Positions 2,052 to 39,124 of a stretch of 64,000 bases of DNA are shown here, in pieces. The stretch is from a virus. The position numbers were made by a program, and so were the translations under genes. Position 1 is the first letter of the stretch. Every line of letters begins with the position of its first letter. The stretch lies in IMG/VR virus record IMGVR_UViG_3300017917_001910, positions 1 to 64,000 of that record. One strand, 5' to 3'. Below the pieces are notes generated by a model that was given only the letters and a program-made list of their open reading frames with translations, had not been told where the DNA came from and ran no database searches.

Positions 2052-2087
2052 TATACTTAAAGATAAGAAAAACATTTCATATTTACA
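2052..2087 (-). promoter_or_regulatory. Promoter-like element P1 heading array 1
   Basis: The minus strand carries AAATATGAAATG, a short gap, then CTTATCTTTAAGTATA. Closely related copies occur at 16,531-16,567, 28,317-28,354 and 29,349-29,384, with looser relatives at 8,721, 41,197 and 55,681. The TATCTTTA box resembles the Bacteroidetes -7 element TAnnTTTG. It sits between the last regular gene (2083..2586) and the cassette array. Confidence 0.55.
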
Positions 2088-14241: not shown

Positions 14242-14263
14242 ATTTTAATATAATGATAATACC

Positions 14264-15061
14264 TTATATAGGCAAATTTATTTTAGATAAAAGTTGATTT
14301 GATACATGAGTGTAAATTTCAGTAGTTTTAATATTAGAATGACCTGCAAGTTTTTGTATTATTCTAATATCCGTCCCGGATTCTAATAAGGCAGTAAAAC
14401 AAGAATGTCGTAGCGTATGAATATGTCCCGATGAATCTATATATTTTTTATAAATTTTTTGACAACTACCTATTGAATAATAAAGAGAATCTTGCCCGTT
14501 AAATAGATATTCTATAGGCTTATATTGTTTAAAATACTCTCTAAGTAATGTTAATACATTTTCTGAGAGCGGTACAATCCTATCTTTTCTGCCTTTAGCA
14601 TTTTTAATGTGTATAAGCATCCTTTTCGAGTCAATATCCTCAATTTTTAGATTGACTATTTCAGACACTCGTAATCCAACTGAGTAGGTTAGTGTTAAGA
14701 TTGCTTTATGTTTAAGATTTTCTATTTTTTGCAGTTGTGTTTTGATAAGATTACTATCAACTACCTTCGGTAATTTCTTTTCTGATTTTGGTCTTTCTAT
14801 TTTAGATAAATGAATGTCTTTTTTATTTAGTATATACTTAGAAAATAATTTCAATGCTCCTATATATTGATTTTGTTGACTACAAGAAGTATATGGATAT
14901 TTTTCAAGGAATGAGACTATCTGTTGAGTTCTTACTTGATATGGGTCTTTAATTTTTTCCGTTTCTAAAAAAAGTTTTAAATAAGAAATATATAACTTGA
15001 TACTGTTATTAGAATAGTTTTTATATCTTAATTTTTCTTCAAAAATTTTAAGAATTTTCAT
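14264..15061 (-). CDS. Tyrosine recombinase (XerC/D- or IntI-like)
   Basis: 265 residues. An N-terminal SAM-like DNA-binding domain (1-90) precedes a catalytic domain with Arg131 (GLRVSE), Lys in AKGRKD (about 156-159), H215-T-L-R218-H, His241 (LAGHSN) and the nucleophile Tyr250 (TEIYTH). It cuts and rejoins DNA at specific sites through a covalent phosphotyrosine. It lies at the downstream end of hairpin array 2, with a core-like GTTATATGCAATGC site about 50 bases upstream of its start, so it is the best candidate for moving the cassettes. The IntI-specific insert was not identified with confidence; ordinary phage integrase is the alternative. Confidence 0.85.
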   Translation of the reverse strand: MKILKIFEEKLRYKNYSNNSIKLYISYLKLFLETEKIKDPYQVRTQQIVSFLEKYPYTSCSQQNQYIGALKLFSKYILNKKDIHLSKIERPKSEKKLPKVVDSNLIKTQLQKIENLKHKAILTLTYSVGLRVSEIVNLKIEDIDSKRMLIHIKNAKGRKDRIVPLSENVLTLLREYFKQYKPIEYLFNGQDSLYYSIGSCQKIYKKYIDSSGHIHTLRHSCFTALLESGTDIRIIQKLAGHSNIKTTEIYTHVSNQLLSKINLPI

Positions 15062-15113
15062 GTTTAAATTATTGATTTTATTAGAGATTTAGGTAGGTTA
15101 TGTATATATAATA

Positions 15114-15180
15114 GTTATATGCAATGCTACGTTTCTGCTTCGTATTAAGTTTGGTGTATAATCTTTTTGTTTTATTTTTT
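15114..15180 (+). repeat. Core-like site L upstream of the recombinase; inverted partner near 15,690-15,757
   Basis: GTTATATGCAATGCTAC at 15114-15130 matches the element C flank GTTATAAACAATGCTAC (16508-16524) at 15 of 17 positions. Further on, a CTTTTTGTTTTATTTTT block recurs inverted on the far side of the GNAT gene, where GTTATATGCAGTGC also lies on the minus strand (15,744-15,757). So the GNAT gene is flanked by inverted core-like ends. No full hairpin of the cassette type is evident here. Confidence 0.4.
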
Positions 15181-15196
15181 CTTCCACCACACAAAA

Positions 15197-15634
15197 TTAA
15201 CGATTATATACCATAAAAGGTGCTGTTGAATCTGTTTCAAAATTGTTATCTTCTTCTGAAACTCTAAAACCATTTTTAATATACCAATCTACTAATTCTT
15301 GTTGATTTAAACCACCGCTTGTTTTAATATTATTTGATATTGATGCTCTTAAAGATAGTGGTACACCTGTTTTATCAGAATATTTTTTTAGTTTATTAAG
15401 TAATTTAGTTGCGTATCCTTTACCTTTAATATCAGACCAAATTTCAGATATATAAATAGAAACTTCACCATCAGATAATTGTTCAATATTTAATTCAGCG
15501 TGTGCATATCCATCATCAATTTTAACTTCGTCTAATTCAAAATACAATAATTTATTTAATCTTGAATTTTCAAATATTTTCTGTTCATTCAAATATTCAC
15601 GTATAGTAGTTGCTATAAATTTTCTTAATTCCAT
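15197..15634 (-). CDS. GNAT acetyltransferase-like protein with targeting-like N-terminus
   Basis: I use ATG 15634 (MELRKFIATTIREYLNE then QK) because this start gives the same N-terminal helix and L-x-E end as the other head-targeted proteins; the longer frame adds 23 hydrophobic residues with no such likeness. The body has strand YAHAELNI, YISEIWSDIKGKGYATKLLNKL (the acetyl-CoA binding motif, KGKGYAT) and VDWYIKNGFRV, which fit the GNAT fold. The substrate is unknown. It lies between the recombinase and cassette element J. Confidence 0.65.
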   Translation of the reverse strand: MELRKFIATTIREYLNEQKIFENSRLNKLLYFELDEVKIDDGYAHAELNIEQLSDGEVSIYISEIWSDIKGKGYATKLLNKLKKYSDKTGVPLSLRASISNNIKTSGGLNQQELVDWYIKNGFRVSEEDNNFETDSTAPFMVYNR

Positions 15635-15751
15635 ATTATCAAATAGTTTTATTCTATATATAAATATCCAAATTTTAATTTCCCACTCACAAAAATAAAA
15701 CAAAAAGGTTCATCTCTCGTATCAAAGTTTGTAGGTTAAAACCGCACTGCA

Positions 15752-15844
15752 TATAACAAAATGTATAAGAAAGTTTGCTATCAAGTTTAGTACTAATTTG
15801 AAAGTTCATCATAAGCAAACCTTCTCATACACCCAACCGTTATG
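15752..15844 (-). repeat. Hairpin cassette element J (attC-like)
   Basis: Cores are GTTATG (15839-15844) and TATAAC (15752-15757). Arms 15761-15779 and 15814-15832 match at 16 of 19 positions and all three differences are G.T on the minus strand. Spacers are 5 and about 2 bases. It ends array 2 on the GNAT side. Confidence 0.75.
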
Positions 15845-15853
15845 TTCAATGAA

Positions 15854-16147
15854 TCAAAAACCAATTTCTTCTAATCTTTTTTTAATCGCTTTAAGAACTT
15901 TACTTCTTATTTTATTTGATTTGTTCATACCACTCCAAAGACCTTGTAGTTTAACTAACTTTTCCATTCCTTTTTCACCATTACATTTAGATATATCAAA
16001 TAAAATATCTTCTAATTCCTTATCTTCCATTGTGTATATTTTCTTATCTTCCATTGTGTAGATTTTTGATTCACTAAACATAACATCAGATATATGTAAT
16101 TTTTTATCTGTGTTATCAAGTTCTGTGTTCTTATTATCTTTATTCAT
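15854..16147 (-). CDS. Cassette protein crossing element B, unknown function (97 aa)
   Basis: Starts in the loop of element B (MNKDNKNTELDN) and runs through the 3' arm and core as KLHISDVM, with GTT ATG read Val-Met. The ATG inside the core could be an alternative start. The first part of the body repeats KIYTMEDK twice (encoded by a short direct repeat near 16,019-16,060), followed by a helical, basic C-terminus (NKIRSKVLKAIKKRLEEIGF). The TGA stop is about 10 bases before the core of element J. No known domain. Acidic N-terminus and basic C-terminus suggest a nucleic-acid or protein-binding peptide, without proof. Confidence 0.5.
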   Translation of the reverse strand: MNKDNKNTELDNTDKKLHISDVMFSESKIYTMEDKKIYTMEDKELEDILFDISKCNGEKGMEKLVKLQGLWSGMNKSNKIRSKVLKAIKKRLEEIGF

Positions 16148-16206
16148 ATTATTTAAGTTTTGTGTTTCAATTTAAGAAAAAACTACATATATCTGTGACC
16201 GTTATA
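16079..16206 (-). repeat. Hairpin cassette element B (attC-like)
   Basis: Cores are GTTATA (16201-16206) and CATAAC (16079-16084). Arms 16087-16105 and 16177-16195 match at 18 of 19 positions with one G.T on the minus strand. Spacers are GGTCA and AT. The loop encodes the first 16 or so residues of the ORF 15854..16147. Confidence 0.8.
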
Positions 16207-16213
16207 CGTAATG

Positions 16214-16468
16214 CTAATCATACAGCGTTACCTTTCCATCTTTATAATCATAACTTCCACTACGACCCAACACCCAAAAAAGAACACCTGCGTCATTTGC
16301 ATATTCTTTCTGTGTTTCAATATCACCACATTCTCTTGCGTTTTCAAGTCCTGCCAACGCACATCGTAGTCGTTCTTCTATCTCAGAAGCACTACGCATA
16401 ACAACAGATAAAAGCAATTTTTCATCACTTCTATTTGAGTTATCTTGCATAATTTTACTTTCGTCCAT
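16214..16468 (-). CDS. Cassette protein crossing element C, unknown function (84 aa)
   Basis: Starts in the loop of element C (MDESKIMQDNSN) and crosses the 3' arm and core as KLLLSVVM (GTT ATG in frame). The remainder, RSASEIEERLRCALAG...DAGVLFWVLGRSGSYDYK, is soluble and predicted helical. I do not recognise it. The ATG within the core is an alternative start that would give a 61-residue protein. TAG stop lies about 10 bases before the first core of element B. It is the promoter-proximal ORF of array 2. Confidence 0.5.
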   Translation of the reverse strand: MDESKIMQDNSNRSDEKLLLSVVMRSASEIEERLRCALAGLENARECGDIETQKEYANDAGVLFWVLGRSGSYDYKDGKVTLYD

Positions 16469-16513
16469 TTTATTTAATTTTAGTTAAAACTGCTTTTATC
16501 TGCAACCGTTATA
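16397..16513 (-). repeat. Hairpin cassette element C (attC-like), first of array 2
   Basis: Cores are GTTATA (16508-16513) and CATAAC (16397-16402). Arms 16405-16421 and 16486-16502 match at 16 of 17 positions with one G.T on the minus strand. The promoter-like P2 ends only about 20 bases upstream of the first core, so a transcript would begin within or just before this element. Confidence 0.8.
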
Positions 16514-16530
16514 AACAATGCTACTTTTAT

Positions 16531-16567
16531 TATACTTAAAGATAAGGAAAACAATTCATATTTCCAA
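16531..16567 (-). promoter_or_regulatory. Promoter-like element P2 heading array 2
   Basis: The minus strand reads GGAAATATGAATTG, a short gap, then CCTTATCTTTAAGTATA. It differs from P1 at a few positions only. Both arrays therefore start behind the same type of sequence, and that type also precedes ordinary phage genes (P3, P4), which ties the arrays to the phage transcription programme. Confidence 0.55.
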
Positions 16568-16621
16568 ATTTTATTATAATTTTAATGTATTGATATTCAG
16601 TATGTAAGGCCTTACTATTCA

Positions 16622-17125
16622 TTATGAAAAATGTTTTTTTATTGTTATAGGATATAATCCTTTATTGTTTTGAGTAATATCAAACTGCAGAAGAATTGCT
16701 CCATTATAATTTATTTTCTTAAATAAAGTATCATTATTACTTAATAAAGCATCTACTACCAACTTTCGCATTTCATTTAAATCATACATTACATAGGTCT
16801 TAGTATATGTATTTACATGATAGATTCGGTCAGCTCGGCTCGAAAAGAACCAACCGAGCTTTCCGTGATCTTGAATCTCTACTTTAAAATGATGGTCCCA
16901 ATCGCAATACAAATTATTTTTACAGTCTAGATAATATTCTCGTAACCACTCTGGCTTCTTAATACTAAAGTCATAACCGCGCTTTTGATGTTCTACTTGG
17001 CCTGCATAATCAGTTACTTCATAACCATATGATTGTAATATTGATTTAAGCCATTCTTCTCCGATTTGTCCTTTGGTGCCAGTTACTGGAAATCTCTCTG
17101 TTAAGGTTGTATTGTATTGAGCCAC
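16622..17125 (-). CDS. PD-(D/E)XK nuclease-like protein (167 aa)
   Basis: The N-terminal GQIGEEWLKSILQSYGYEV helix-strand, then KRGYDFSIKK and LDCKNN, follow the E...D...xxK order of PD-(D/E)XK nucleases (Asp of GYDF about 51, DCK about 70). The C-terminal strands lack other known motifs. It is encoded just after the folE fragment, with a one-base gap. In phages such proteins serve as Holliday resolvases, homing-type nucleases or restriction-like enzymes; the sequence does not say which. P2 lies about 55 bases beyond its stop. Confidence 0.55.
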   Translation of the reverse strand: MAQYNTTLTERFPVTGTKGQIGEEWLKSILQSYGYEVTDYAGQVEHQKRGYDFSIKKPEWLREYYLDCKNNLYCDWDHHFKVEIQDHGKLGWFFSSRADRIYHVNTYTKTYVMYDLNEMRKLVVDALLSNNDTLFKKINYNGAILLQFDITQNNKGLYPITIKKHFS

Positions 17126-28316: not shown

Positions 28317-28354
28317 TATACTTAAATATAAGTAATACATTTCATATTTCCTAA
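28317..28354 (-). promoter_or_regulatory. Promoter-like element P3
   Basis: The minus strand carries ATTAGGAAATATGAAATG, then TATTACTTATATTTAAGTAT. It is nearly identical to P4 (29,349-29,384) and close to P1 and P2. It follows a terminator (28374-28403) and precedes the queD operon. Confidence 0.6.
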
Positions 28355-28415: not shown

Positions 28416-28823
28416 TTATTTAAAGTTATTTATAGCAACTGCTAATTTTTTGAATTTTTCACCTATAAGGTTTAAGTCCATTTTATATATTATACGAGAT
28501 AATTCTCGTAAAGCAATGTCAATGCCTCTCCATCTAGCTTGTTGTTCTGGATTTAAATTTGCAAGACCTGACAACTCATACGTGTCAACTTGTGATTCTT
28601 CCATTGTTTCAAATATAGACTCATCATTAGTTTTTACTGCATTTTCTAATGCTTTTATATCTTCTATTGTTTCATCAACAATATAAGGTTCATATAACTT
28701 AAGTTTACTAGCTAAAGTATATATTTTCTTTAGTTTTTGATAATCAATAGTATTAATTTCATTTTCTTTTAATACTTCTTTAATGCTCTCTTTTATAAGA
28801 GATTTTAGTTGTGATATTTTCAT
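28416..28823 (-). CDS. Head-targeted protein, unknown function (135 aa)
   Basis: The first 20 residues MKISQLKSLIKESIKEVLKE are identical to those of the next gene, 28849..29181, and end in the (L/I)xE pattern. The body is helical and acidic (DETIEDIKALENAVKTNDE) with no known domain. The identity extends into the upstream DNA (97 bp repeat at 28762-28858), so these two genes share a duplicated start module with different bodies. Presumed to be carried in the capsid, by analogy with T4 internal proteins. Confidence 0.6.
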   Translation of the reverse strand: MKISQLKSLIKESIKEVLKENEINTIDYQKLKKIYTLASKLKLYEPYIVDETIEDIKALENAVKTNDESIFETMEESQVDTYELSGLANLNPEQQARWRGIDIALRELSRIIYKMDLNLIGEKFKKLAVAINNFK

Positions 28824-28858
28824 GTTATTGTTATTTTATATATATATGTTATACTTTA
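28762..28858. repeat. 97-bp direct repeat, copy 1
   Basis: Identical to 29120-29216. It covers the upstream region and the codons of the 21-residue N-terminal helix in two different genes. It also includes the last codon and stop of the upstream gene. Confidence 0.95.
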
Positions 28859-29181
28859 AGAGTATCAAAAATATTACCTTCATTTAAATTGCGCCCTGAT
28901 GAATCATAAAAAATGCCTCGGTTACCTGTATCAAAAAATTCTTCTACTGCTTCATCAAATGCATTTTCTAAATTATTATCTTCTAATTTATCTTTCACAT
29001 TTTGAATTAGTTCGATAGCAGAAGCAATCTTCCTTTTATTTAATAATTTAATTAATACATCTAAATTTTCTTCAGAGTTGCGATAATTTTCATTTAATAA
29101 TGAAACAGTTGATATTTGTTTTTCTTTTAATACTTCTTTAATGCTCTCTTTTATAAGAGATTTTAGTTGTGATATTTTCAT
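28849..29181 (-). CDS. Head-targeted protein, unknown function (110 aa)
   Basis: N-terminus MKISQLKSLIKESIKEVLKE is identical to that of 28416..28823, but the rest (EQISTVSLLNENYRN..., ending IFDTLKV) is unrelated. It is acidic and helical with no recognised domain. A hydrophilic internal head protein is the likely class by its N-terminus. The last residue and stop lie in copy 1 of the 97-bp repeat. Confidence 0.6.
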   Translation of the reverse strand: MKISQLKSLIKESIKEVLKEKQISTVSLLNENYRNSEENLDVLIKLLNKRKIASAIELIQNVKDKLEDNNLENAFDEAVEEFFDTGNRGIFYDSSGRNLNEGNIFDTLKV

Positions 29182-29216: not shown

Positions 29217-29355
29217 TTTTTTCTTGTCGTAACTGCCGTTTCTAATTTCGACCCATTTATAAAAATATGATCTCCTTTGAATTGTGCTATAGCCTTAGAT
29301 AATCTATAATTTTGACATCTAACTGAATTAAATACTGAATCAGCACTATTTAAAT
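29208..29355 (-). pseudogene. C-terminal gene remnant without a start codon
   Basis: An open minus-strand frame reads VFNSVRCQNYRLSKAIAQFK and continues GDHIFINGSKLETAVTTRKNKV to a stop at 29208. It has no ATG and meets the P4 region at its start. The final bases coincide with the 97-bp repeat, as if it were the remnant of a third targeted gene whose beginning has been lost. The interval 29182-29450 otherwise contains P4 and a terminator. Confidence 0.3.
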
Positions 29356-29384
29356 ATAAGTAATACATTTCAAATTTCCTAATA
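29349..29384 (-). promoter_or_regulatory. Promoter-like element P4
   Basis: Near identical to P3 (the minus strand reads ATTAGGAAATTTGAAATG, then TTACTTATATTTAAAT). With the terminator beside it, the pair forms a duplicated terminator-promoter module of about 60 bp at 28,330-28,400 and 29,350-29,430. Confidence 0.55.
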
Positions 29385-33500: not shown

Positions 33501-34667
33501 TTATCCTAAAGAATTTCCTAAAAGTTCTGAATATTTTGTAGCTAAAGATTTTCGTGTTACTGAATCTTCATCCATCTCTGTTTTTGTTTCTCTTCCTTTA
33601 ACAGATGATTCTTGATACATATCAATTCTACCATTTGACATATTAAGTTTAGTTGGTAATGTTAATCCATCTGGCCCGAAACGATTCTTAATAAAATGCA
33701 CTCTTCCTGTACCTGCAATCTTATCTGTTGTTTTTCTTGCTAATGAAATAATAACATCTCCAATCATAATCTTACTAAATGAAGAAGCTACTTGATCTGA
33801 TGTAATAATATCAGATTCTACAGAAGATCTATTTGCTTGAGATGCCGTAACAACTGGTATTTGATATTCTCCGGCTAATCCTCTTAAATCTTCATATGTA
33901 GTTTCTAATTCTTCATGAAGTTTTTCTTTTGCTTTTGCTGAACGTAATAAATCTGCATAATCTACAATAACAATATCAGGTTTTACTCCTTGCATTATCA
34001 TTTTATCTAAATGAGCTTTTAATGTCGTTACAGATGCTGTTTTTGTCGGAAAGAACTTTAAATATAATTGTCCTTTTAATTTAGATAATTCATGCTCAAC
34101 TTCTTCTAAGTTATATTTTAAATTTGCAGTCGCTATTCCAGTAACTACTGAGTCATATCTTTGAGCTACATAGGGCTCTGATAATTCCATTGTATAATGG
34201 ACTACTGTTTTTCCTTGTCTTAATAAATGAGCTCCTACATTAATCATCGAAGTAGAGTTATGTGATAAAATACCATTACTATAATAACAATTAACTTCGT
34301 CTACTGTAATATCATATAAAGATTCATACTTATCTAAATATTTCAACTCTTTTAGATATGTCGTTCCTAATTCAGTTTCTATAATATCAGAAGGTTTAAT
34401 ATTTAATACTTTAGTCCAGCCATCTTGTGTTTTTAATAAATGATGTGATGAACATTGTAAAGTTTTATTATTTCCGAAATAACATGTTACTTTTTGTTGA
34501 ATTTCTGTTCTAAATAAAGAAGTTATACTTTTATATCCATATGGAGTAAGTACTTTAACATGGATATCAGGTATAACTTCTATATTAGGCGTATTTGGTA
34601 TTTGATATTTATCAAATAATTCTTTAATAGTTATAGTTTCTTGTTTATTTCGTTTAATTAATTTCAT
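33501..34667 (-). CDS. 41: Helicase C-terminal half with C-intein (gp41/DnaB-like)
   Basis: Residues 1-137 are the C-intein: TPYGYKSI (41-48), block B-like CSSHHLLKTQDGW (72-84), and YDITVDEVNCYYSNGILSHN ending in the splice-site His-Asn, followed by Ser138 as the +1 residue. Residues 138-388 are the helicase RecA-like core: STSMINVGAHLL completes the Walker A motif after splicing, PDIVIVDYADLL is Walker B, and VVTASQANRSS the sensor. The protein is expected to splice in trans with the product of 35602..36390. The start overlaps the endonuclease stop by 14 bases. Confidence 0.85.
   Translation of the reverse strand: MKLIKRNKQETITIKELFDKYQIPNTPNIEVIPDIHVKVLTPYGYKSITSLFRTEIQQKVTCYFGNNKTLQCSSHHLLKTQDGWTKVLNIKPSDIIETELGTTYLKELKYLDKYESLYDITVDEVNCYYSNGILSHNSTSMINVGAHLLRQGKTVVHYTMELSEPYVAQRYDSVVTGIATANLKYNLEEVEHELSKLKGQLYLKFFPTKTASVTTLKAHLDKMIMQGVKPDIVIVDYADLLRSAKAKEKLHEELETTYEDLRGLAGEYQIPVVTASQANRSSVESDIITSDQVASSFSKIMIGDVIISLARKTTDKIAGTGRVHFIKNRFGPDGLTLPTKLNMSNGRIDMYQESSVKGRETKTEMDEDSVTRKSLATKYSELLGNSLG
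34257..34667 (-). other. C-intein segment (137 residues)
   Basis: Codons 1-137 of 33501..34667, ending SHN before Ser138 (34254-34256). It already contains ITIKELFDKY and VKVLTPYGYKSI, text that in most inteins belongs to the N-terminal half, so the break lies unusually close to the intein's start. Confidence 0.8.
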
Positions 34668-35559
34668 ATATAAATTTTATGACTTGATCTAATATAATAT
34701 CTTTTTTGGATTTCCAATCCGATTCCCATATAATAAAAATGGAATAATTAAGTGCTTCTAGGTCTTTGCATCGAGAAGCATCTTTATTCCATTGGTCATC
34801 AACAAGATACATTCCTCCTGGCTTTTTAATATAATCTCCAGACTTATATATTTTTGGATTACAGTGCCAATAATCTCCATTTACTTCAATAATTTTATTA
34901 TCAACTTGAATATCTACAATATATGAAGTATTAGATATCTTTTTATTAAATTTAAACACTTTATCTTTGCAAAGAGATTTAATATTTTCCTGAATTAATC
35001 TTTCTAATTTAGATACACATCCGGTATTATTATGTTGATCACCAAAATTTTTATCTAACCATGCTTCTTTACCAATTAATGCAATTTCATTTAATTTATT
35101 TCTTCTTGTAGCATTACTTTGCTTTATTTTAGCTTCTTTGGTATGTGAATGACCTAAGAACTTTTTTGATTTAGCACTGGCTATTGATTGATATTCTTTT
35201 AATTTATTACTAGCTTCTTCATGAGACAATCCGTTATTTAAATAATAATCAATAGATCTTTTAGAACCTTTTTTACTTTTTAATTTTGAAGCTTCTTGTA
35301 TTTTTAAAATTTCTACGGGGTCTGATATATTACGTTTAGCATAATATTCATCACAGAATTTATTTCTTTCTCTCTGACTAATGGACACTTGCAATTTAGA
35401 TTCTTCTTCAGTATATCCTAAAGCTAGCCAATATTCTATTCTATTATTGTTAATAGGAGGCGTGCCATTAGAATTAAATCTTTTCTTTTGATCTTCCCAT
35501 TTACGAAGACCTTCTACTTCGCCGTACTTTTTAATCCAAGCTTGTTTTACAGATGCCAT
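34654..35559 (-). CDS. EDxHD (Vsr-like) homing endonuclease between the intein halves
   Basis: 301 residues. The motif order is E186 (SKLERL), D216 (YIVDIQ), E225/D229 with H232 (IIEVNGDYWHCNP) and the later Asp/Arg text WNKDASRCKDL, then FIIWESDW, as in Vsr-like homing enzymes. Basic repeats in the first half (SKLKSKKGSKRSID, SATRR-like) probably bind DNA. It is encoded between the N-terminal and C-terminal helicase genes, as in the fractured genes with split inteins described by Dassa and colleagues. It likely cuts an uninterrupted helicase allele. Confidence 0.85.
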   Translation of the reverse strand: MASVKQAWIKKYGEVEGLRKWEDQKKRFNSNGTPPINNNRIEYWLALGYTEEESKLQVSISQRERNKFCDEYYAKRNISDPVEILKIQEASKLKSKKGSKRSIDYYLNNGLSHEEASNKLKEYQSIASAKSKKFLGHSHTKEAKIKQSNATRRNKLNEIALIGKEAWLDKNFGDQHNNTGCVSKLERLIQENIKSLCKDKVFKFNKKISNTSYIVDIQVDNKIIEVNGDYWHCNPKIYKSGDYIKKPGGMYLVDDQWNKDASRCKDLEALNYSIFIIWESDWKSKKDIILDQVIKFIYEIN

Positions 35560-35601
35560 ATTCTTTATTATAAATATATAAATAATAAAGTTTTTATATA
35601 T

Positions 35602-36390
35602 TTATTTTTCCTGGACCTGGACCTGTAAAAGGTTAATTACTTCATGCCCTTGAATTTTATGATTATCTATTTCATATATGGTAAATGGATCAATCCAAAA
35701 TATAAAAGGCATTCCTTGAGAATTAATCATTTCAATACCTAACTCTTCATACTGTATATCTATAGACGTATTAGGCCCTATACATTTACCAGCACCAGGC
35801 CCTGCCACAAATATAATAAGCTCTCCTTTACCAATACCGCCATCAACCAATTCATTAAATGCAGTCCAAGGTGTAGGTAAAGTTATTCTAGCTGATTCTT
35901 CATAACGTAATTTAACATCTTTTAAATATTCTAATCCAATATCTTGATTAGCCCCTGCTTTCATTGCAGTATCAATTTTCTTTTTGATATTATCATATTC
36001 TCCTGATTGTAATAACTCAACAGATTCGATAATAGCTTTTTTAATACATTGATTTTTACAGAAGTTAACACACTCTGTTTTGACAAAATCTAAATCTTCT
36101 GCTTCAACATATCTTAATATATCTTTTAAAGATTCTACAATAGACAATTTTAAAGGTTCAGATGTAAGTTCTAATGCCTTTACTTTAAATACTTCTAATG
36201 TAGGTACTGTTTTATATTCTGGATAGTATTTCATAATAATACCTACAATCCAAATATTAGCTTCAGAATCAAAATATTCAGGTATTAAAATATCGAATAT
36301 TTGTTGAAGAAATGTTTTATCTTTTATAAGTGCCGCAATTATTTTTAATTGAAAGGTCTTTCCGTACTGCGTAAATCTATCTTGACTCAT
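35602..36390 (-). CDS. 41: Helicase N-terminal half with N-intein (gp41/DnaB-like)
   Basis: Residues 1-202 are a DnaB/gp41-type N-terminal domain and linker followed by the start of the ATPase domain (LPTPWTAFNELVDGGIGKGELIIFVAGPGAGK). At residue 203 the Walker A motif GPGAGK stops and Cys203 opens the N-intein CIGPNTSIDIQYEELG. The last 45 or so residues (MINSQGMPFIFWIDPF...) are not typical intein text. Splicing with 33501..34667 would rebuild GPGAGKST. The replicative helicase therefore depends on protein trans-splicing. Confidence 0.85.
   Translation of the reverse strand: MSQDRFTQYGKTFQLKIIAALIKDKTFLQQIFDILIPEYFDSEANIWIVGIIMKYYPEYKTVPTLEVFKVKALELTSEPLKLSIVESLKDILRYVEAEDLDFVKTECVNFCKNQCIKKAIIESVELLQSGEYDNIKKKIDTAMKAGANQDIGLEYLKDVKLRYEESARITLPTPWTAFNELVDGGIGKGELIIFVAGPGAGKCIGPNTSIDIQYEELGIEMINSQGMPFIFWIDPFTIYEIDNHKIQGHEVINLLQVQVQEK
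35605..35784 (-). other. N-intein segment (60 residues, functional part probably shorter)
   Basis: Codons 203-262 of 35602..36390. Only the first 16 or so residues resemble the conserved intein start C-x-x-x-x-T-x-I. The rest lacks the usual block text, which is found instead at the start of the C-intein. An out-of-frame GPGPGK is encoded just before the stop codon (about 35,608-35,625). Confidence 0.7.

Positions 36391-37483: not shown

Positions 37484-39124
<1,641 letters not shown>

Follow-up and report, generated by a model that had tools for sequence, protein, structure and literature searches.

Results

A recombinase module and its cassettes

The window, i.e. the whole stretch of 64,000 nucleotides that was analyzed, is part of a 115,252-base virus record. 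Its source is a T4-like phage infecting Bacteroidota; the T4-type genes of this phage are those for PolB, Gp23, a T4-type portal, a prohead protease and a sheath protein. Nearly all genes in the window are located on the minus strand. An earlier sequence-only reading of the window had described a tyrosine recombinase at 14264-15061, next to an array of hairpins and cassettes at 15114-16567 (array 2). The recombinase is as described: it lies on the minus strand, has 265 amino acids and resembles XerA. The array turned out to be one end of a 2.38-kb module (14250-16629), which contains a promoter-like site, three cassettes made of a hairpin and an ORF, an attI-like site and the recombinase gene.

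The three hairpins that the reading had called C, B and J were recovered on the minus strand by a core scan and by a covariance model. The attC-like hairpins J (16399-16511) and C (16081-16204) are long and encode leaders, and B (15754-15842) is compact. The first cassette ORF (16214-16468, minus strand, 84 amino acids) starts in the loop of hairpin J with the leader MDESKIMQDNSNRSDEKLLLSVVM; the second (15854-16147, minus strand, 97 amino acids) starts in the loop of hairpin C with the leader MNKDNKNTELDNTDKKLHISDVM. These are the two cassette ORFs of the sequence-only reading, which saw them end beside a GNAT gene. Both ORFs are present, but the supposed neighbor is itself the third cassette ORF of the array (15197-15634, minus strand, 145 amino acids), with a likely start at the ATG at 15634 and an N-terminus, MELRKFIATTIREYLNEQ, that is common to unrelated cassettes. 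The label GNAT is also weak; the protein is GNAT-like at best, since its match to Pfam Acetyltransf_7 reaches 16.7 bits against a cut-off of 27 bits. Searches of Pfam, NCBIfam and PHROGs gave no firm assignment for the cassette proteins of the window. Recognized cargo among the phage cassettes includes a DNA methylase, an RNA ligase and a 3'-5' exoribonuclease.

The promoter-like site of this array (16531-16563, minus strand) is akin to that of array 1 (2052-2084, minus strand), as had been claimed. It is not found on the attI side, where the promoter of an integron platform would be, but at the far end of the array, and the cassette genes point toward attI. By chance, 0 matches to the motif are expected in the window. 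Further copies occur on the minus strand at 28317-28349 and 29345-29377; because of the copy at 28317-28349 we consider the motif to be a general type of phage promoter. These two copies are near two similar ORFs (28416-28823 and 28849-29181), which both start with MKISQLKSLIKESIKEVLKE.

Two other regions of the window are of separate interest. The ORF at 37484-39100 reads as a GroEL-like chaperonin of 538 amino acids. A replicative helicase at 33501-36390 is apparently in two parts, split around the P-loop (GPGAGK|C ... HN|STSMINVG); intein-like sequence flanks both sides of the split and an endonuclease-like ORF (34654-35559) lies in between. From the ORF translations, this region is probably a split intein with a free-standing homing nuclease.

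A relative with an empty site

A collinear relative (L177) has a PolB that is 97% identical to that of the window phage, and about 90% DNA identity with the window. In this relative the ORF equivalent to 16622-17125 runs directly into PolB, without the DNA of 14250-16629. Promoter, array, attI and recombinase therefore form one discrete block; judged from the aligned sequences, this module was either acquired in the window phage or deleted in L177. Array 1 is likewise missing from L177. An 85-bp stretch at 16525-16609 is 96% identical to positions 21106-21190 of L177, a promoter region elsewhere in that genome, where the counterpart of the array-2 promoter precedes a different gene. This suggests that the module may have taken up a phage promoter. 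The empty site and the missing IntI domain of the enzyme (see below) were both beyond the view of the sequence-only reading.

Hairpins with a fixed irregularity

Scanning the window for paired TAAC/GTTA cores joined by a long stem gave exactly nine clustered hairpins, namely J, C and B (15754-16511) and six in array 1 (287-1761), together with two further low-scoring unclustered matches. Shuffled sequence gave zero hairpins in the core scan at the same threshold. A covariance model from bacterial chromosomes alone found the same nine hairpins and a tenth at 1-102, which is cut by the contig start. The array 1 hairpins are all on the minus strand; the six found by both methods are at 287-400, 502-628, 784-906 (with the leader MIDIQVFDENGKALHIADVI), 1140-1229 (compact), 1402-1530 (with the leader MKDLKHIKRFNESEENLNISDVI) and 1635-1761. 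No family in Rfam matched the hairpins.

The stem, of 18 bp, was analyzed in 104 distinct hairpins. Counting from TAAC, most of positions 5-23 show Watson-Crick pairing in 81-100% of the hairpins, with all pair types. The exceptions are two positions at which the coding strand has G.T, namely position 17 in 97% of the hairpins and position 12 in 47%. An A.C on the coding strand was never observed at these two positions. The scan demands TAAC, GTTA and pairing, so that the conservation of these features is partly by construction; the fixed G.T position is therefore more telling. Since the irregularities are G.T pairs on the coding strand, the minus strand (the mRNA sense) folds unbroken and the plus strand folds with symmetric mismatches. 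In this ungapped-stem scan, which would miss rare bulged sites, there were no extrahelical bulges at a fixed place; what is conserved instead is a 1x1 G.T on the coding strand, or A.C on the other. The hairpins share with attC sites the inverted repeat, a core, an R box and the 18-bp stem, with a core that is GTTA and not strictly GTTRRRY.

The attI-like site and the turnover of cassettes

The attI-like site (15096-15127, minus strand) was located by alignment and by loci that switch cassettes. It consists of a cassette end, GCATTGCATATAAC, joined to a conserved half, TATTATATATA, and its crossover core TAAC appears as GTTA on the plus strand at 15114-15117. In an alignment of 52 such sites the half on the recombinase side, TAAC-TATtATATATA, is conserved; on the cassette side conservation is limited to a short R box, AtTGnnn(a/c)TAAC. 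The sequence-only reading had seen a core-like site upstream of the recombinase. This site is indeed present at 15114 and, because it lies at the junction of the conserved half with variable sequence, it is the boundary between attI and the cassettes, which that reading had not noticed.

Some loci share an identical recombinase and about 50 identical upstream bases, and have unrelated DNA past TAAC; the switch occurs exactly at the core (L028/L031/L034 and L005/L006). In two other pairs (L041/L042 and L020/L025) recombinase and attI are 98-99% identical and the sequences diverge abruptly at TAAC. The conserved half-site and the exact switch of cassettes upstream of the recombinase gene thus point, by comparison of the loci, to an attI next to its integrase.

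The cassette unit was analyzed by comparing, over 12 bases, the sequence after the leading GTTA with the reverse complement of that before the trailing TAAC. On average, the two ends of one cassette agree in 7.36 of 12 bases, whereas two ends that together form a hairpin agree in 4.3 and random pairs in 4.2. At least 9 of 12 bases match in 83 of 176 cassettes and in only 3 of 123 neighboring ends that share one hairpin. Because the ends of a cassette match each other and not those of its neighbor, the cassettes are circularizable units. One-gene cassettes common to different phages indicate exchange between arrays; one of them, present in L005 and L024, has retained its 5' hairpin, with a similarity of 0.94 upstream and 0.55 downstream. 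We rejected the idea that the preceding gene takes the hairpin along, since the long matches begin at TAAC and include the 5' hairpin.

Linkage of hairpins and recombinase in viral contigs

With the recombinase as query, viral contigs yielded 80 relatives, which are 41-88% identical. For 62 of these loci 1 kb or more of upstream sequence was available, and 57 of the 62 have hairpins upstream of the recombinase gene; the arrays reach up to 14 sites. In total, 397 kb upstream of the recombinase contained 208 hairpins and 564 kb downstream contained 5. All 129 model matches in phage loci (56 sources) were on the strand opposite to the recombinase gene. In comparison, 79 loci around related phage polymerases with no detectable relative of the recombinase gave one hairpin match in 1.1 Mb. 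Two more viral contigs (L267 and L290) have recombinases that are just 43% identical to that of the window and adjoin arrays of 6-10 hairpins; the phage family is therefore wider than the 80 loci studied.

The sequence-only reading had named the recombinase as the candidate enzyme for the TATAAC/GTTATA cores of both arrays, and had suggested co-occurrence and phylogeny as checks. The co-occurrence described above supports this candidate role, and so does the phylogeny. In a tree of 63 rows, in which the window protein is represented by a protein that is 88% identical to it (L002), three IntI proteins form one clade (99/97), which is separate from a clade of the phage and Bacteroidota enzymes (97/93). 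Many of the chromosomal recombinases in the latter clade are beside homologous hairpin arrays. Two integrases of Bacteroidota temperate phages are near the clade of the phage enzymes, on long branches.

A recombinase without the I2 domain

The catalytic set of the recombinase is complete: R131, K156, H215, R218, H241 and Y250 are invariant in 29 family members. The distance from the K-beta motif to HxxRH is 59 residues, compared with 106-107 in IntI1 and IntIA. The enzyme is hence shorter than IntI by about 47 residues, which correspond to the IntI-specific domain (I2, around patch III); an alignment to IntI4 falls into two pieces. The AlphaFold model (pLDDT 87.5) does not contain the extra I2 helix, and its best solved match in Foldseek is the attC-bound IntI4. 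The matches in Pfam and PHROG are to generic phage integrases, and the nearest matches in isolated phages are temperate-phage integrases with about 40% identity. We found no tRNA gene in the window; the conserved site is a cassette junction and not an attP of the tRNA type.

Related arrays in Bacteroidota chromosomes

Relatives of the recombinase in Bacteroidota genomes are 41-65% identical. Many of them are followed by genes between which lie hairpins of about 126 nt; these hairpins show the core and the mismatch signature seen in the phages. A model built from 24 of these Bacteroidota hairpins had 5-81 matches in each of the 12 Bacteroidota genomes examined; these genomes were picked for carrying the related recombinase, so that this is not an estimate of prevalence. 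The model also matched phage hairpins with E values down to 1e-22, and the hairpins of the window with 7e-12 to 4e-3. The fact that a model from chromosomes alone detects every hairpin of the window means that phages and hosts share an integron-like lineage.

The direction of the genes relative to the hairpin is the usual one in the chromosomes and the opposite one in 181 of 189 phage cassettes (181 vs 3). As a consequence of this reversal the site is at the 5' end of each phage gene. No exchange of entire cassettes between the arrays of phages and hosts could be shown; apart from recombinases, the sole match was a DNA methylase-like protein. In the Bacteroidota genomes L095, L100, L101, L107, L112, L115, L160 and L166, XerA-like recombinases of about 350 amino acids lie beside arrays of the ~126-nt hairpins.

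From their sequences, the Bacteroidota chromosomal arrays look like an unrecognized type of superintegron. In a survey with IntegronFinder 2.0 almost no integrons were reported in Bacteroidetes (PMC9024848), and the hairpins in 12 of 12 recombinase-carrying genomes contrast with this near-absence. Phage integrons with IntI and phage CALINs have been described by Qi et al. 2023 (PMC9892861). Our hairpin model had no match in three of their phage records (two with an integron integrase and one CALIN) or in a class 1 integron plasmid, and gave only E = 0.64 for a fourth record, Polaribacter phage P12002L.

Hairpins that encode leaders

Long hairpins make up roughly half of the total, and most of them provide the start codon and an N-terminal leader for the protein encoded by the cassette to which they belong. 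Of 109 distinct long hairpins, 95 have a reading frame that runs from the first loop ATG through the core without a stop. The phase of the leader stays open for a median of 53 codons beyond the core, compared with 9 and 2 codons in the other phases. The leader families, which include MNKDNKNTELDNTDKKLHISDV, MKDLKHIKRFNESEENLNISDV and MSKEMRKYIDTFKQRLTESENLNISDV, are fused to different proteins. Many cassettes with a short hairpin start with MELRKFIATTIREYLNEQ or MSKEMREHIDxxKNFKQFxNEN. The shared N-termini are similar to those of other proteins of the window phage and to T4-type cleavage sites.

Discussion

The comparative data make it very probable that the T4-like Bacteroidota phage carries an integron-like platform for the capture of cassettes. 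The XerA-type recombinase (14264-15061) would join the core GTTA of folded attC-like hairpins to the attI-like site upstream of its own gene; we infer that this enzyme is the catalyst and that a single folded strand takes part in the reaction. Circular one-gene cassettes would enter and leave at the attI-like site and would be transcribed as an operon from the distal promoter of the array, in the direction of attI and the recombinase. The cargo may benefit the phage. The evidence for recombination is comparative sequence, and all relatives are metagenomic contigs; from this comparison come the linkage, the cassette unit, the exact junctions, the turnover, the conservation of the stem and the empty site.

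The enzyme also raises a question about the mechanism. In IntI the extrahelical bases of single-stranded attC are docked by means of the I2 helix (PMC7790495), and recombination of a single strand by an enzyme without I2 is therefore not a given. In addition, a recombinase of the host could supply the activity in trans. The cassettes of array 1 have no adjoining recombinase in the window contig. We call the system integron-like and do not file it as an integron, because the I2 domain and the extrahelical bases are missing and the geometry differs. From its sequence features, the type appears to be undescribed in the literature searched (most subscription papers and preprints were outside the search). 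I2 is held to be the innovation that enabled the use of single-stranded sites (PMC7790495), and a family with integron architecture and no I2 makes this claim testable.

A different reading, which we consider unlikely even though several data fit it, is that the sites recombine as double-stranded GTTA boxes in the style of Xer/dif, and that the stems have an RNA function, for example in translation control or mRNA stability. The XerA-like enzyme without I2 would suit such sites. The mRNA strand folds free of mismatches and many hairpins contain start codons, which is what a role in RNA would predict. However, the chromosomal hairpins have homologous stems that bear the same signature, and there the genes have the opposite direction relative to the hairpin; a role as 5'-leader RNA can therefore not be the common function. 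Double-stranded sites also do not account for the finding that the cores of neighboring cassettes pair by folding alone, as in attC, or for attC-bound IntI4 as the best structural match.

It is improbable that the array consists of passive, CALIN-like cassettes from a host integron, with an unrelated phage recombinase and with mobility from host enzymes. The chromosomal arrays do have the same hairpins and phage CALINs are known (PMC9892861), but the position and strand of the hairpins are tightly linked to the phage recombinase and the attI half-site is conserved; moreover, the reversed direction of the genes means that the phage cassettes are not simply host cassettes. Finally, we consider it very improbable that the enzyme is a phage integrase of the ordinary kind and that the hairpins are repeats or terminators unrelated to it: the generic database matches, the ~40% identity to temperate-phage integrases and the two such integrases on long branches near its clade agree with this, but the hairpins track the recombinase and are nearly absent where no relative of it was found, cassettes switch exactly at the core adjoining it, Gp23, portal and prohead protease mark the phage as T4-like, no tRNA was found in the window, and a terminator role leaves the matching cassette ends unexplained.

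The integron-like platform may have a further use in the phage. As a conjecture by analogy, the proteins tagged with leaders might be loaded into the capsid. A broader and more speculative reading, to which we give little weight as a whole, is that Bacteroidota and their large phages have a separate integron lineage, with an I2-less enzyme that acts on folded sites, and that the phage sites fuse N-terminal tags to exchangeable effector or anti-defense proteins, which would be packaged and injected into the host. As a part of this same doubtful combination, some tags would resemble T4-type segments for capsid targeting and prohead cleavage (LTE|S, FNE|S and YLNE|Q). If the sites also serve as N-terminal fusion modules, they would represent a new route to the diversification of phage proteins.

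Comparison with known systems

Internal proteins of T-even phages that carry a capsid targeting sequence (PMC3012670) are also diverse proteins with only a short N-terminal segment in common, and the window phage has a T4-type prohead protease. The difference is that here the shared N-terminus is encoded by, or beside, a recombination hairpin.

Among the closest parallels to the array are integrons with IntI, attI and attC, to which the phage integrons and CALINs of Qi et al. 2023 belong (PMC9892861). In integrons and in the phage system alike a tyrosine recombinase is beside an attI or attI-like site; the cassettes have a single gene and one imperfect inverted-repeat site with GTT core boxes, their ends rebuild a longer palindrome, and many different cassettes surround near-identical families of sites. 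In contrast to integrons, the phage enzyme has no IntI-specific domain, symmetric G.T/A.C mismatches replace the extrahelical bases, and the core is GTTA(T/G) instead of GTTRRRY. The phage cassette genes also face attI, with the promoter at the far end, and the hairpins are at the 5' end of the genes, where many of them encode leaders. In typical integrons the integrase and the cassettes diverge from attI. In the chromosomal integrons of Treponema they have the same direction (PMC3607928), as in the phage; however, intI points toward attI and the cassettes away from it in Treponema, whereas the phage cassettes point toward attI and the recombinase away, and the Treponema enzymes are IntI proteins. 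The archaeal XerA/Xer proteins (PDB 4a8e, 5hxy) are the closest full-length relatives with a solved structure and have the same minimal domain layout. Xer acts at a single dif site on chromosome dimers, whereas the phage enzyme accompanies arrays of cassettes.
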